Assembly (NCBI GenBank): GCA_002179805.1
Contig: NAVB01000174.1
Location: 45,693-109,692, forward strand
Direction of reading: 5' to 3'
DNA length: 64,000 bases
DNA from: Acanthamoeba lenticulata
Taxonomy: Eukaryota; Discosea; Longamoebia; Acanthamoebidae
Part shown: positions 1,940 to 40,222 of the stretch, one piece after another
Numbering within the stretch: the stretch's first letter is position 1
Layout: each line of letters starts with the position of its first letter
Position numbers and translations under genes: made by a program
Notes under the pieces: model-generated
The model's input: the letters and a program-made list of their open reading frames with translations, nothing else
Told to the model about the DNA's origin: nothing
Database searches by the model: none

Positions 1940-2222
1940 CGTCGTGAGCTAATCTTGTCGACAAATGCATTGAAATATGTGTCGACATGTAGTACCTGGT
2001 CTGGCCAAGACCTTCTGGGTGTTGTTCTTCTGGTCCAGGATGGCTTGGATCCACCAGACCTGGTTCAGTAGTATGGTTGTTTTCATTAGTTTGGGTGGGA
2101 GGGCGTGGGCAGGCGACGAGCGCACCGCCCACACGACCATAAATTATGCTGGCTGCTCACCCCGTAGGGCAGCAGTAGTCACCACCACGCACAACCCAAC
2201 GTGCAATGGAAGGGGGTGGCGG

Positions 2223-4492
2223 CTAGAGGGTCTGCCTGCTTGATCGCAGACCCTTCCAGCAAGGTACGTATGCTTTTGCCCTCCCCCCGCTCCGCTATTT
2301 GTACCCACCTCCCCTCTCCCTCCCGATTGTGGGACAGAAATGTTGCCCAAATAAACCAGCCACTTGGGGCGGAGCTGTTGTTGCAGCATACCTGCTCGTT
2401 CTTGCTGGGCGCTCCGAAGTAGTGCGAGTCCTTGGACTTGGTCAGCACACGGAACCCGTTGGGCAGGTCGGCTGGCGCGTCAGGCACAGGGACTAGGAGT
2501 CAGCTCTCCAGGGTGGGTGGTGAGAAGGAAAGGGCCGACGTACATCGTTGGCCGCTGGTGTCGTCGACAGACTCGATGGACAAGAGGTCGATCTGCGCAA
2601 GACATGATTACGATGCACGGGTGGAGGTGAAGAAGAGGTAATGAAGCTAATTATGCGTACCTGGAAGAGGAACTTGTACTTGTGCTCCTTCTTGGCCTTG
2701 GGCTTGCCACAAACAAGGAGCTCGTTCAAAAGGAACAGCTGCACCTCAATGACCTGGTTCTTGTGCAGGTATTTAACTGCAGCACAAAGCGACGTTATAA
2801 CACCACACGACTATGGAGGTAGTAGAGGGGAGGGGAGGGGAGGTGGACTCACGCTTGGCTTCGTTGACGAAACGCCGGCTGGGCGCCACCAAGGTGGGCG
2901 CATCGCTCCCAAAGCTGCGTTGGATGTCGGCCACCTTCTGCATGTTCTCGGCCACTTTGAGTCTGATGTGGTATTCAAAAAGTGAAAGGCGCACGTAAGG
3001 TGGGTCTGGTCAAGCTCGTTACGATGGCGATAGCCAGCGCGTACCGCTCGTTGAGGTAGTCGGCTACTTCTTGCGTCATCTTCAAGGCGGACGCGAGGTT
3101 CTCATAGTCGACGTGGCTCTCGTCGGTGTTCTTCAGTAGGTCCTGTTCGTGTTTGTTATTTAAGAAACGAGAGATGAGATGCCATGACACGAAGCCTGAA
3201 ACAAGAAGAAGAGACGGTGAAGGGAGCAAGCGTCACCTTCAAGAGGAGGATGTAGCGAGGTACACGCTGGATTGGCATGACTTGGTGTTTGTCGCATTCG
3301 ACAAGCAGAGCAGAGATGGAGAGCGTCAACCAGAGTTCATGTCATTACGGAGAGGATGAAAAGGTGGGATTGGGCCCGTACTGAGGTAGTCGCTGGCATC
3401 GTGGAACGAGCACTCGGGGTACTTGGCGGTGTCCTTGATGAACTGGGCGAAGGCCTTGTTCTCCTTCATGCACCGTAGATACGTTTGCAGCGCTGTGTGG
3501 AAGCAAAGAAAACGTGAGCACCCACCTTTTTTGGGGGCGAGAAGAAGAAGTAGTAGGACATGAAGTGTATAACTACGAAGAGGTACCGCTGGAGTAATTG
3601 CTGCTGTAGATCGTGTACGTCTTGAGGAAGGGCACAAAGGTGAGGAACACGTCGCCAATCTTCTGCTCAGGAGACCAGTTGCTGATGCGACTCTCCAGCT
3701 CTTCCAGCAGCTTGGAGTTGACCCTGGCAACATGAAGGCTCATGATGTTGGTTACCAACAACATTTGCAGGGCATTGCTACTTCGCAGGACACGTACCCG
3801 ATGATGGTCTCGAGGTTAGAGAAGATGGTCCTGACGTCATCCTACACGCGGTGGTAGGTGAGTAGAAAGGCGGATGAGGCAAGGGAGCGAGGGAGAGTGT
3901 GAGCGACCTTGGCCAGGAGGGGCGTCTCGCGCATGGAGAGGCGCTTCATGAACCACTTGTCAAAGGTCTTGAGATAGCCCACATAGGCCTTCTCGGTCGA
4001 CAAGATCTCCTGCGCAATATGCTGCCTCTTCTTGAGCTTGCGCGCTTCCTCGCTTGAAGGGTCGAGCAGCGCGTCGGACGAGGTGGAAGCAAGCGCGTCG
4101 CTCCCCAAGTTCTTGGTCATCTTGGTGATCTTGGCCGGGATGTAAAGGTAGGCCGCGAATTGAAGGAAGGAGGTCATGAGCTCCTTTTGTCGGTCGGCAT
4201 CGATGAAAAGCAATTCAAAGGTGTGTAGAATGAGAATGAATTGCTCGAACACCAAGAAGTAGGTGAAAAAGTTGTTCGAGGTCTGAGTAGCGTCAATGAG
4301 GAGGAGAGGCGACAGAAGGAAGACCACAGCAGCTGGTACAAGAGAATAGGCGAGAGGCGGCCGAAGGAGCGCGGCTAAGGGCGAGGCCACAGAAGTAGGC
4401 GCAACTCGCGGTTTCATTTGTGGCAACACCACTCGATGCACGAAGAAAGGGAACGCCACCAGGCCCAACAAGTACGCCAACCAGCCCCACAT
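2223..4492 (-). CDS. RhoGEF (DH-PH) protein with N-terminal membrane segments
   Basis: The ATG at 4492 opens an exon with two hydrophobic stretches (MWGWLAYLLGLVAFPFFVH and LVPAAVVFLLSPLLLI). A DH domain follows, spread over about six exons: RQHIAQEILSTEKAYVGYL (CR1), DDVRTIFSNLETIIG then VNSKLLEELESR, KIGDVFLTFVPFLKTYTIY, the hallmark QVMPIQRVPRYILLLK (CR3, near 3233-3300), and KNTDESHVDYENL. A PH-like region continues with VQLFLLNELLVCGKPKAKKEHKYKFLFQ and FRVLTKSKDSHYFGAPSKNEQ. Dbl-family DH-PH modules exchange GDP for GTP on Rho GTPases and so control actin. An N-terminal membrane anchor ahead of a DH domain is unusual. The last exon is unsure: splicing after NEQ into a short exon ends near 2223, while reading through would end at 2179. 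It is divergent from the calmodulin-like gene. Confidence 0.82.
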
Positions 4493-33600: not shown

Positions 33601-35066
33601 ACCCCAGAGGGGAAGAAAAAAGTGGCGCGCATGCTGCTCTGGCTCTTGGTTGAGTCGTTTCACTCACTCGCTCTTCGCTGGTTGGGTGTCACACGGACAG
33701 GTGCGCCCTTCTGGTCGGGCCCGAAGCGTCCCCCGATGCCCATCGTCTTCAACGCGGACAACGCGACCCACCTGGACTTCATCATCGCCGCGGCCAACCT
33801 CCTGGCCTTCAACTTCCACGTCCCGCAAGTTCGCGGTACGTACTTCTTCTTTGATTTTTTTTTCTTGTCTAAAGAAAGTAGAAGACAATTATTAATTTAA
33901 TTATTAATTCTGCGACGTTACGCCAGATCGGGAGCAGGTCAAGGAGATGGTGGGCAAGGTGCACGTGCCCGAGTTCTCGCCCAAGCAGGGCGTCAAGATC
34001 AAGTCGGGTGACAACGACACCACCGAGGAGGGCGCCGAGGATGACGAGCAGATCGTACGCGCCTCTCTCTTTCCTCTCTCCATTTTGCCTCTTTTGTTCA
34101 CGAGTTTGCCTTCATCGTCATTGTTGGCTTACACCATCGGGGCGGACGCACGGCAGGTGTCCAACCTGATCGGCGAGCTGGGCAAGCTGGACAAGGGCAA
34201 GTACCCCGTCGGCGAGAGCGGCCGATGCTTCGAGCCGGCCCAGTTTGAGAAGGACGACGACTCCAACTTCCACATCTCCTTCATCACCCGTACGTTCACC
34301 GTCATCCTCCCCTTGTTTCGTCGTCCTTAACCTGAACGTAATGATGATTAAAAACGTGTCATCTTCCACAACAACAACAACAGAGGCGTCGAACTTGCGG
34401 GCGGCCAACTACAAGATCCAGCCGGCCGACTTCCACAAGACGAAGAAGATCGCCGGGCGTATCATCCCGGCCATCGCGACGACGACGGCGATGATCACGG
34501 GCCTCGTCGGGCTCGAGCTCTACAAGGTGGTCCAGGGCGCGTCGGTCCCGATCGAGCGCTACCGCAACTCGTTCGTCAACCTGGCCCTGCCCTCGTTCGT
34601 GCAGTCGGAGCCCATGCCCTGCACCAAGCACAAGTCCGACCCGGCCAAGGGCCTCAAGTACTACCCCGAGGGCTGGACCCTGTGGGACTCGTTCGTCATC
34701 GACGAGGGCGACATCACCTTCCAGCAGCTGCTCGACCTCTTCCAGGCCAAGCACGGCCTTGAGGTCACCAGCGTCAGCTGCGGCACCACCCTCGTCTACA
34801 ACCCCTACTTCCCGACCCACAAGACCCGCCTCAACACCAAGATCTCTGACTTTGTCCGCTCCAGCGTCCCCTCTTATGGCCTCAAGGTACTTTGACCTTC
34901 TTCTTTTTCTTCTTCAAACACTTATTTTTGTTATTTATTGCTGACGATTGTTTTTGCCACTTTACAGGAGGACGACAAGCAGATGTTCATCGTGGTGCTG
35001 ACCGAGGACGAGGAGGGCAATGACGTGGAGATCCCCGACCCCGTCATCCTCAAGTTCAGGAAGTGA
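30623..35066 (+). CDS. UBA1: Ubiquitin-activating enzyme E1
   Basis: The ATG at 30623 begins [12 protein letters not shown]; exon 1 ends at 30865 and exon 2 starts at 30968 in phase 0. The inactive adenylation half has [22 protein letters not shown] and [21 protein letters not shown]. The active half has [22 protein letters not shown] (ATP-binding loop), [28 protein letters not shown] and [15 protein letters not shown]. The catalytic Cys sits in [13 protein letters not shown], followed after an intron by the Cys-domain [10 protein letters not shown]. The C-terminal ubiquitin-fold domain ([20 protein letters not shown]) binds E2 enzymes. TGA is 35064-35066. All expected blocks occur in order, so it is a complete E1 of about 1,050 residues, charging ubiquitin at the head of the pathway that the F-box and BTB genes nearby would feed. 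One intron holds a (TTTTTA)n tract. Confidence 0.95.
32930..32985. repeat. (TTTTTA)n microsatellite in a UBA1 intron
   Basis: A T5A tract just after the 5' splice site of the intron that follows the catalytic-Cys exon. Confidence 0.9.
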
Positions 35067-36998: not shown

Positions 36999-38459
36999 AT
37001 GGAGCGAGATGAAGAAGTGGTTGCTGCTGCCCGGCCCGCGAAAAAACAGCGCACGGGAAGCAACTCGCCCCAAGATGCCACTTCTTCTTGGCCACAAGAC
37101 TCGGAACCACCGCTACAGGTAGCAGCAGCAGCAGGCGAACGGGAGGTAAAGGTGGGCGTGGGCGACCTCCCCGTGGAACTCATCGGCTTCATGCTTGGCT
37201 TCGTGGAGCCGCTCTCGCTGGTGCCTTGCCGCGCCGTGTCACGCACATGGGCTGGTGCCGTTGAACGCGTTCTGCCTCTTCTCTGCTCGTTCGAGCGGCC
37301 GCGCGCCCTGGCGAGGGAGACTGGCCCGGAGTCGTTTGCTTCGTGTGTCGCAGAACAGGGCTGGCTCTCTGTGCTCCAGTGGGCGTCTGCCAACGGCTGC
37401 CCGTGGGACGATGAGGAGACCTGCGCCGCGGCGGCCAGGGCAGGCCATCTGGACGTGCTCCAGTGGGCACATGCTAATGGTTGCTGGTGGGACGAGCGCA
37501 CTTGCAGCCTAGCGGTGAGGAATGGCCACCTGGACGTGCTCCGGTGGGCCCGCGCCAACGGCTGCCCGTGGGACGATGACACTTGCAGTGAAGCGGCGGG
37601 GAATGGTCACCTGGACTTGCTCCAGTGGGCTCGCGCCAACGGCTGCCCATGGGACGAGCGGACTTGTGCCTACGCGGCCAGACAAGGCGACATGAACGTG
37701 CTCCAGTGGGCCCGCGCCAACGGCTGCCCGTGGGACGGGTGGACTTGCGCCTACGCGGCCAGACAAGGCCATCTGGGCGTGCTCCAGTGGGCGCATGGCA
37801 ATGGTTGCTGGTGGGACGAGAACACATGTGCCTGTGCGGCCAATGCAGGCCACCTGGACGTGCTCCAGTGGGCTCGCGCCAACGGCTGCCCGTGGGACAA
37901 GTGGACTTGCAGCAATGCGGCCAAGTCAGGCCATTTGGACGTGCTCCAGTGGGCGCGTGCCAACGGCTGCCCATGGGACGAGCGAACCTGCGTCAGTGCG
38001 GCCTATCCAGGCCACCTGAACGTGCTCCAGTGGGCGCGCGCCAACGGCTGCCCGTGGGACAAGGAGACCTGTGCTGAAGCGGCCAGAGGAGGCCACTTGG
38101 ACATGCTCCAGTGGGCACGTGCCAACGGCTGCCCGTGGGACGAGCGTACTTGCGTCAACGCGGCCTGGGAAGGCCACCTGGACGTGCTCCAGTGGGCACA
38201 TGCCAACGGCTGCCCTTGGGACAAGTACACTTGCAGCACAGCAGCCTTGACAGGCCGTCTGGACATGCTCCAGTGGGCACATGCCAACAGCTGCCCTTGG
38301 GACGAGAAAACCTGTGCCAACGCGGCCAGGAAAGGCCGTCTGGACATGCTCCAGTGGGCACGCGCCAACGGCTGCCCGTGGGACAAGGCGGAGTGCACCT
38401 CCATAGCAAAGGCAGAGGGATATCTGGACATGCTCGAGTGGCTACAAACCATAGATTAG
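36999..38459 (+). CDS. F-box protein with 14 GCPWD (ankyrin-type) repeats
   Basis: A single exon of 486 codons from ATG 36999 to TAG. The N-terminus carries a basic stretch (RPAKKQR), then an F-box, GDLPVELIGFMLGFVEPLSLVPCRAVSRTWAGAV. From 37369 to the end run 14 near-identical 27-residue repeats of the form GHLDVLQWARANGCPWDERTCxxAAR (81 bp period), ending DMLEWLQTID. The repeats are degenerate ankyrins in which Trp, Cys and the CPWD turn are fixed. This F-box plus GCPWD arrangement is, from general knowledge, abundant in Acanthamoeba and in giant viruses that infect it, notably Pandoravirus. The protein likely serves as an SCF adaptor. The lack of introns stands out among its intron-rich neighbours. 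Confidence 0.88.
   Translation: MERDEEVVAAARPAKKQRTGSNSPQDATSSWPQDSEPPLQVAAAAGEREVKVGVGDLPVELIGFMLGFVEPLSLVPCRAVSRTWAGAVERVLPLLCSFERPRALARETGPESFASCVAEQGWLSVLQWASANGCPWDDEETCAAAARAGHLDVLQWAHANGCWWDERTCSLAVRNGHLDVLRWARANGCPWDDDTCSEAAGNGHLDLLQWARANGCPWDERTCAYAARQGDMNVLQWARANGCPWDGWTCAYAARQGHLGVLQWAHGNGCWWDENTCACAANAGHLDVLQWARANGCPWDKWTCSNAAKSGHLDVLQWARANGCPWDERTCVSAAYPGHLNVLQWARANGCPWDKETCAEAARGGHLDMLQWARANGCPWDERTCVNAAWEGHLDVLQWAHANGCPWDKYTCSTAALTGRLDMLQWAHANSCPWDEKTCANAARKGRLDMLQWARANGCPWDKAECTSIAKAEGYLDMLEWLQTID
37369..38456 (+). repeat. 81-bp coding tandem repeat array, 14 units
   Basis: Fourteen tandem 81-bp units encode the GCPWD repeats. Units share long identical stretches at DNA level (the ctccagtgggc and gccaacggctgcccgtgggac cores recur almost unchanged). 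This suggests recent unit duplication or gene conversion within the array. Confidence 0.9.
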
Positions 38460-38494
38460 TATTCGCGATGTTGATGTGTATGGCACACGGCGAT

Positions 38495-39508: not shown

Positions 39509-39513
39509 TCTTT

Positions 39514-39735
39514 GGGCGTGGTGCTTAGTCGAGGTGTCTCATCTGCCCATTGCACGGGCCGCCTAAAATGAACTCGCGGGTTCGAATCCCGCCGCCTCCA
39601 TCCAGGGGGTGTGGCCGAGTGGTTAAGGCGTTGAACTTGAAATTCAAATTTACTTCGAAACTGGCGTAGTCTGTGCGAGTAAGTGGCAAAGCCTTCGGGC
39701 TCCCGAGGCACCTGACGCGACCACCATCCCTTCTC
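39514..39735 (+). ncRNA. Permuted tRNA-like unit 1 (precursor extent)
   Basis: This segment is conserved almost base for base with 39922-40145, well beyond the tRNA parts. Its left flank AGGTGTCTC (39532-39540), preceded by GTC (39528-39530) and one unpaired G, can pair with GAGGCACCTGAC (39705-39716): 12 pairs with one bulge. A perfect small hairpin, AGCC-TTCG-GGCT, lies at about 39690-39701. A T run at 39736-39740 could end Pol III transcription. I read it as a primary transcript that encloses a tRNA whose halves are in reversed order. The RNA-structure reading is by hand and needs folding software. Confidence 0.65.
39575..39662 (+). tRNA. Circularly permuted tRNA-Ser(TGA) candidate
   Basis: The 3' part comes first: T stem GCGGG (39576-39580), T loop TTCGAAT, CCCGC (39588-39592), acceptor 3' strand CGCCTCC (39593-39599) and discriminator A 39600. 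After a 4-nt spacer the 5' part follows: acceptor GGGGGTG (39605-39611), T8-G9, D arm GCC-GAGTGGTTAA-GGC (39614-39629), anticodon stem TTGAA (39631-39635), loop CTTGAAA with anticodon TGA (39638-39640), stem TTCAA (39643-39647), then a variable-arm-like stretch with ACTTCGA. All seven acceptor pairs form (two are G-U). The Pol III A-box (TGGCCGAGTGG) and B-box (GGTTCGAATCC) consensus are present but in inverted order. A class II tRNA for UCA serine codons is inferred. Confidence 0.7.
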
Positions 39736-39740
39736 TTTTT
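39736..39740 (+). terminator. T5 run, possible Pol III terminator of unit 1
   Basis: Five T residues follow the conserved ccaccatccc end of unit 1, as expected for RNA polymerase III termination. Confidence 0.45.
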
Positions 39741-39921
39741 GCTGTTTCCTGTAGCGAGTAGTCTTGTCCTGGTGGCGTACTTTTTTAGATGCTGCCTGTA
39801 ACAATCATCTGACGGCAGGGCGAGACGCTCTCGCTGGCGACCGATCGAAGTGGCGCACGAGTGAGTCGAGGTCGAGCGCCGCCGCGGCCTTGCCCGTCGC
39901 CACATGCAATCGTTTCGTGAT

Positions 39922-40145
39922 GGGTGTGGTGCTTAGTCGAGGTGTCTCATCTGCCCATTGCCCAGGCCGCCTAAAAGAGATCGCGGGTTCGATTCCCGCC
40001 GCCTCCCAAGTTCAAGGAGGTGTGGCCGAGTGGTAAGGCGTTGAATTTAGGATTTAAATGTACTTCGAACGTGGCGTAGTCTGTGCGAGTTAGTGGCAAA
40101 GCCCTCTGAGGCTCCCGAGGCACCTGACGCGACCACCATCCCCCT
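39922..40145 (+). ncRNA. Permuted tRNA-like unit 2 (precursor extent)
   Basis: A paralogue of the unit at 39514, offset by 408 bp. The same closing helix can form: GTC 39936-39938 plus AGGTGTCTC 39940-39948 with GAGGCACCTGAC 40117-40128. The distal hairpin keeps the stem AGCC/GGCT but has the loop CTCTGA instead of TTCG, so stem conserved and loop free to vary. A TTTT at 40151-40154 may terminate it. The 180 bp between the units hold no recognisable gene and may contain the second promoter. Confidence 0.65.
39982..40070 (+). tRNA. Circularly permuted tRNA-Leu(TAG) candidate
   Basis: As in the Ser unit, the 3' part is first: T stem GCGGG (39983-39987), loop TTCGATT, CCCGC (39995-39999), acceptor 3' strand CGCCTCC (40000-40006). 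A spacer of 9 nt (including the base in discriminator position, here C, which is unusual for Leu) leads to acceptor GGAGGTG (40016-40022), D arm GCC-GAGTGGTAA-GGC, anticodon stem TTGAA (40041-40045), loop TTTAGGA with anticodon TAG (40048-40050) and stem TTTAA. The acceptor pairs completely with one G-U. Class II identity fits Leu. The discriminator C is the weakest point. Confidence 0.65.
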
Positions 40146-40150
40146 CTTTC

Positions 40151-40154
40151 TTTT
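40151..40154 (+). terminator. T4 run, possible Pol III terminator of unit 2
   Basis: Four T residues shortly after the conserved end of unit 2; a minimal Pol III terminator. Confidence 0.35.
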
Positions 40155-40172
40155 CTCGTTGTGTAAAATAAT

Positions 40173-40180
40173 TATTTTTA

Positions 40181-40211
<31 letters not shown>

Positions 40212-40222
40212 TTATTTTTAAA
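40173..40222. repeat. (TTTTTA)n microsatellite
   Basis: An imperfect tract of T5A units between the tRNA-like unit and the stop codon of the 2OG oxygenase gene. Confidence 0.9.

Follow-up and report, generated by a model that had tools for sequence, protein, structure and literature searches.

A candidate family of class II tRNA genes, circularly permuted at the variable arm, in Acanthamoeba lenticulata

Introduction

Thirty-four permuted tRNA genes, with junctions at 20/21, 37/38, 50/51, 59/60, and 15/16, are tabulated in the accessible text of Soma 2014, which gives red and green algae, a nucleomorph, and Thermofilum as their hosts (PMC3978253). The same text describes a circular intermediate detected in algae and a proposed pathway in which RNase P and tRNase Z open the acceptor loop. 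Permuted tRNA genes in the Amorphochlora nucleomorph and in Auxenochlorella are later additions, as far as the available parts of the sources go. Bacterial YrlA RNAs comprise a stem of paired 5' and 3' ends together with a domain that resembles the tRNA D, T, and acceptor arms, according to the accessible part of one report (PMC8394870). The nev-tRNAs of nematodes combine class II bodies with unsuited anticodons and take Leu, as the available text on them states (PMC4033280).

We analyzed a 64-kb stretch of A. lenticulata DNA (64,000 nucleotides, here called the window) and the genome from which it comes, and found a family of RNA units that shares features with each of these systems. Like the permuted tRNA genes of algae, nucleomorphs, and Thermofilum, in the accounts accessible in part, the units carry the 3' half first, a short linker, a T-stretch past the 5' half, and commonly Ser or Leu anticodons. 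Unlike them, according to the same accounts, they have their junction in the variable arm, a long covarying rod made of leader and trailer, no strict bulge-helix-bulge that we could see, an amoeba as host, and normal-order genes for the same anticodons in the same genome. Like YrlA (RF02553), they have a basal stem built from both ends and share the order T arm, sealed acceptor, D arm, but they differ from it in having a full anticodon arm with changing anticodons. The class II body with an ill-fitting anticodon (here CAT, as well as Ser anticodons together with A73) recalls the nev-tRNAs; however, the accessible part of the report on the latter makes no mention of permutation (PMC4033280).

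Results

Two permuted copies in the window

An earlier note on this DNA had described a tRNA-Ser(TGA) whose 3' half is encoded before its 5' half. The pairings in the sequence bear out this permuted cloverleaf. Indeed, the T stem (5/5; 39576-39592), the D stem (3/3), and the anticodon stem (5/5) form as claimed, the acceptor stem pairs 7/7 with two G-U pairs (39593-39599 with 39605-39611), and the 4-nt spacer is TCCA. What the note had missed is a second copy 408 nt downstream, in tandem with the first, and the pairing of leader and trailer with each other. The features of both copies are collected in Table 1. The homology of copy 1 to the copies at other loci begins at ~39513 and stops near the T-run.

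Table 1. Features of the two permuted copies (positions in the window)
Feature	Position	Strand	Remarks
Copy 1, whole putative transcription unit, anticodon TGA	39513..39740	+	From homology to copies elsewhere and the T-run
Copy 1 leader, 5' strand of the rod	39513..39572	+	CGCC at 39560-39563; TGAA at 39569-39572 pairs with variable-arm TTCG
Copy 1 T arm, also B box	39576..39592	+	GCGGG TTCGAAT CCCGC
Copy 1 3' acceptor strand CGCCTCC and discriminator A73	39593..39600	+	A73 at 39600
Copy 1 linker TCCA, sealing the acceptor stem	39601..39604	+	
Copy 1 5' acceptor strand GGGGGTG	39605..39611	+	
Copy 1 T8, position 9, D arm, position 26	39612..39630	+	
Copy 1 anticodon arm, loop CTTGAAA	39631..39647	+	Anticodon TGA at 39638-39640
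Copy 1 variable arm, 5' side	39648..39657	+	TTCG at 39654-39657 pairs with leader TGAA
Copy 1 trailer, forming the 3' strand of the rod and a single small hairpin	39658..39730	+	
Copy 1 T5 run	39736..39740	+	Likely Pol III terminator (putative function)
Copy 2, whole putative unit	39921..40154	+	TTTCTTTT at 40147-40154
Copy 2 T arm, 3' acceptor strand, position 73 (C)	39983..40007	+	
Copy 2 5' acceptor strand, D arm, anticodon arm	40016..40057	+	Loop TTTAGGA; anticodon TAG at 40048-40050

A rule-based scan of both strands of the window found the permuted layout in exactly 2 places, the two copies, and in none of 150 random windows of the same first-order composition. ARAGORN without introns called no tRNA in the window, and the 5' halves scored 28.9 bits (copy 1) and 24.8 bits (copy 2) with the Rfam tRNA model, both under the cut-off of 29 bits. 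After the halves of the six uninterrupted copies of the genome (see below) had been exchanged, all 12 reordered sequences (6 copies with 2 trial junctions each) were called tRNAs by ARAGORN, namely Ser tga, Leu tag, Leu taa, Ser aga, Leu tag, and Met cat; these calls stand without a shuffled control.

Elsewhere in the window, we observed a U1 spliceosomal RNA (2104-2271, minus strand; 75.1 bits) and, at 37800-38460, tandem protein repeats of the type LDVLQWARANGCPWD that look ankyrin-like by eye. A T-rich TTTTA repeat lies directly past copy 2 (40171-40220) and is shorter on the homologous contig C400.

A dispersed family in the genome

Copy 1 and the most divergent copy (L006), each used as the query of a DNA search, led to the same 8 places, which represent six uninterrupted units and two pieces of a seventh copy on C400, all counts being lower bounds. 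The 48,480,206-base genome (1825 contigs) holds at least seven copies, one of them split by an insertion. Each copy has the order leader, T arm, 3' acceptor strand, linker, 5' acceptor strand, D arm, anticodon arm, and trailer. In 6/6 uninterrupted copies, the 3' half stands ahead of the 5' half, and the linkers, which follow position 73 and are 3 to 8 nt long, contain no terminator and vary in both length and sequence. A stretch of four or more T residues follows shortly past the trailer, also in 6/6; it has the form TTTCTTTT in copy 2 and comes only after TTCTATCA in L006.

Homology links contig C557 with C1682 (96.6% across 3247 aligned positions) and the locus on C158 with that on C400, so that the family amounts to about four independent loci. 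Between different loci, homology is mostly restricted to the unit. Over the short time that separates homologous contigs, conservation of the RNA does not exceed that of the flanks (7/222 versus 53/2969 for L002/L004 and 4/109 versus 42/1449 for L005/L008). L002 and L004 are the same gene on homologous contigs, yet the former carries Leu TAA and the latter Leu TAG, and their rod also shows a paired change from G-C to A-U.

The seventh copy is split in its D loop at TTAA (L110 and L111; C400:3280-6806) by an insert of ~3.5 kb with the inverted ends GGGTCCAGTTACG, which we take to be piggyBac-like in its target and ends; Pfam revealed no transposase in its three open reading frames of at least 150 residues. 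The foot of the rod of this copy now pairs poorly, as judged by eye. Spread in the manner of a SINE was considered and rejected, as comparison of the 40 nt upstream with the 70 nt downstream of the six copies showed no clear target-site duplications; the longest run common to both flanks of L002 is T-rich and measures 9 nt, and for each of the other five copies it measures 5 nt. A 21-nt trailer pattern had a single match in a collection of genome contigs, on a Methylomirabilis contig with no tRNA-like surroundings by eye, which we took as chance, and none in a collection of viral contigs.

Leader and trailer extend the variable arm

Leader and trailer pair with each other over 39 consensus pairs, and the resulting long rod extends the variable arm. 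Its innermost part consists of CGCC/GGCG, an A-rich 5x5 loop, and finally the helix UGAA/UUCG, with four pairs (but three in copy 2), which occupies the place of a class II variable arm. By this fold, the RNA would thus be a class II tRNA that has its ends at the variable arm and its acceptor closed by the linker.

Standard pairs occupied 398/404 pair cells of the six distinct copies, a count that leans toward the consensus structure because the latter was derived from these same six sequences, which are related and few. Five pairs had changed on both sides (two in the rod and one each in the acceptor, the T stem, and the trailer hairpin), compared to a mean of 1.5 after shuffling and 0 to 1 when the partner was slid, in which case 38 to 49% were paired. 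One acceptor pair is missing in L003, and 0/18 columns of the D arm vary among the six copies. Single-copy folds had z-scores of -2.9 (0/200 shuffles as low) and -2.1 (6/200). The T arm and the sealed acceptor are present in the minimum-energy folds of both window copies and the canonical anticodon stem is absent from them; it appears in the consensus fold of the six sequences, the pairs of which had mean probabilities of 0.43 to 0.87 over the six copies. Inspection of the fold where the termini meet revealed no strict bulge-helix-bulge. This site is made of the 5x5 loop, the four-pair helix, and a 3-nt CUC, and by eye it could be a relaxed form of the motif.

Anticodons and identity elements

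The anticodons are TGA (L001), TAG (L005), TAA (L002), AGA (L003), TAG (L004), CAT (L006), and, in the split copy, TAG (L008). Positions 34 to 37 are the most variable of 203 four-column windows (mean pairwise difference, 0.617), and the second most variable is the linker. All five quadruplets at these positions are present in normal tRNAs of the genome, and the whole seven-base loop matches a normal tRNA in the case of TGA, AGA, TAA, and CAT, with TAG differing at position 38. If some 46 of the 256 quadruplets are used by tRNAs, we roughly estimate the probability that four new quadruplets would all be in use by chance at ~0.001, which makes this the best argument for anticodon identity having mattered.

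Normal-order genes are present for all five anticodons: Ser TGA (loop CTTGAAA, 2 genes), Ser AGA (CTAGAAA, 10 genes), Leu TAA (CTTAAGA, 1 gene, found by a narrow pattern), Leu TAG (TTTAGGC, 3 genes, equal to copy 2 at positions 32 to 37 and different at 38), and Met (CTCATAA, 13 exact matches of the anticodon arm, 6 of them within Rfam tRNA matches). The earlier note had set against its own reading a normal-order tRNA-Ser(TGA) gene elsewhere that explains all reads while this locus stays silent; the two Ser TGA genes supply the first half of this.

Position 73 is A in 5/6 uninterrupted copies and in L007 and C in copy 2. Among the normal genes inspected, G73 was found in 22/22 Ser genes (10 AGA, 10 CGA, and 2 TGA) and A73 in all 21 Leu genes (18 AAG and 3 TAG). 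If processed, most tRNAs of the family would therefore be Leu-like acceptors under Ser, Leu, and Met anticodons. The identity proposed for copy 1, tRNA-Ser(TGA), agrees with its TGA loop but not with its A73, which is Leu-like. Also speaking against a plain tRNA-Ser(TGA) gene are the TAG, TAA, AGA, and CAT anticodons of the family and its rod, which has the basal-stem layout of bacterial Y RNA.

Discussion

A proposed permuted gene and how it may be processed

We consider it a little better than even that the copies form a dispersed class II tRNA gene family, circularly permuted with the break at the variable arm. This reading is supported by features seen in the sequences, namely, the layout, the two-sided changes, the anticodon loops of normal type, the T-runs, and a family of at least seven copies. 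On the other hand, the rod seems to exceed, in length and preservation, what a splice site would require by itself, A73 is ill suited to Ser anticodons, copy 2 carries C73, all five anticodons have normal-order genes, no strict bulge-helix-bulge was seen, and between homologous contigs the RNA is conserved no better than the flanks.

From the T-runs past the trailers, together with the T-arm B box, we infer that Pol III would transcribe leader, 3' half, linker, 5' half, and trailer; by eye, a weak A-box-like GTGCNNAGT lies in the leader, ahead of the B box. The leader-trailer rod would hold both ends together at the variable arm and might be removed by a cut close to the A-rich 5x5 internal loop that adjoins the variable-arm helix of four pairs. 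Ligation of the cut ends would give a circle, from which RNase P and tRNase Z would excise the linker before CCA addition. Genes for RtcB and for proteins with tRNA-endonuclease domains are present in the genome. The predicted product is an extra tRNA with a Leu-type body (A73 and a long variable arm) and a UGA, AGA, UAA, UAG, or CAU anticodon.

Alternative explanations

The RNA could instead be noncoding and stable and remain unopened throughout, as the eukaryotic equivalent of bacterial YrlA, with the basal rod bound by a TROVE protein and the sealed tRNA-like head binding an effector or tRNA enzymes. We regard this as unlikely, yet as a serious competitor. The layout of Y RNAs, a stem of paired ends with tRNA-like D, T, and acceptor arms, is present in the family, the rod is maintained with two-sided changes, and the Rfam YrlA model (RF02553) follows the permuted order (T arm, sealed acceptor, D arm) in its alignment with copy 2, which scores 23.3 bits; with copy 1 it reaches 20.9 bits. 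However, these scores are far below the 69-bit cut-off, the Rfam Y_RNA model (RF00019) had no match in the genome (50/2657 first-look candidates scored), and such an RNA would need neither a full anticodon arm nor positions 34 to 37 that switch among real tRNA versions. The genome does encode TROVE proteins (4 matches on 3 contigs), and that on C610 is 76% identical to a TROVE protein of A. castellanii Neff, the best of the 120 matches listed; none of these contigs bears a copy of the RNA. The TROVE-domain proteins lie on C610, C965, and C440 (L067-L070), one of them in a 2243-residue open frame that is perhaps TEP1-like, and relatives of the C610 protein frequently bear the name telomerase protein component 1. 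The unopened RNA would itself be the product, a long rod, perhaps TROVE bound, displaying a sealed but complete class II tRNA, which we find rather doubtful. Such a product would make up a eukaryotic RNA class that joins the designs of YrlA and of permuted pre-tRNAs in one molecule and has exchangeable Ser, Leu, and Met anticodon loops.

The copies may also be relics of an old rearranged tRNA copy that spread by duplication and is now silent or without function. The coverage of all five anticodons by normal genes would fit, as would the insertion-broken copy with its poorly paired rod foot, the deviating position 73 of copy 2, the acceptor pair lost in L003, and, in two homologous contig pairs, an RNA conserved no better than its flanks. 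Decay of this kind is nevertheless improbable in view of the two-sided changes in the acceptor, T stem, and rod, the unvaried D arm, the normal-type anticodon loops, the T-runs past the trailers, and an inter-locus homology mostly confined to the unit.

More improbable still is a decoy function, in which rod-mounted sealed tRNAs with several anticodons would absorb anticodon nucleases or modification enzymes. Diverse anticodons on a nearly constant body are in agreement with it, and a role as a competitive inhibitor has been suggested for YrlA by others, in the accessible part of their report (PMC7790460), but the anticodons are spread over Ser, Leu, and Met instead of matching a single target.

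ARAGORN with introns allowed made two calls in the window, one of which is a Ser(tga) (39605-40007) that combines the 5' half of copy 1 with the 3' half of copy 2 across 328 nt. The corresponding normal-order tRNA-Ser(TGA) gene, with a 328-nt intron between a 5' half at 39605 and a 3' half ending at 40007, is scarcely credible because the four other copies L002, L003, L004, and L006 are single units, which are complete in permuted order only and receive no such call, and because the T5 run (39736-39740) falls within the would-be intron; moreover, the product would carry C73, and the identical setting makes an unrelated intron call elsewhere in the window. The latter, Ser(gga) with a 262-nt intron (34373-34731, minus strand), looks like a chance call.

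In permuted tmRNA (RF04321), the T arm and the 3' acceptor strand likewise come ahead of the 5' acceptor strand, but the window copies reached 24.1 and 19.1 bits against a cut-off of 47 bits. The tmRNA model RF00023 gave 25.5 bits, also under 47 bits, and tmRNA was rejected. D and anticodon arms such as those of the amoeba copies are not known to be part of tmRNA.

Implications

As the earlier note had supposed, none of the junction types I to V in the accessible text of Soma 2014 has its break at the variable arm (PMC3978253). The literature on permuted tRNA, in mostly freely accessible papers available in part, yielded neither a variable-arm junction nor, again in line with the note, a permuted tRNA from an amoebozoan. 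If the RNA is cut and rejoined into a tRNA, the family would represent a permutation type and a kind of host that are both new; otherwise, it would be an unusual tRNA-headed RNA. A permuted family in an amoeba would widen both the host range and the range of junction types, would show that permuted genes can coexist with normal genes of the same anticodons, and would link permuted pre-tRNAs to tRNA-headed Y RNAs. Finally, a Leu-type body with Ser or Met anticodons offers a testable case of possible coded mistranslation.
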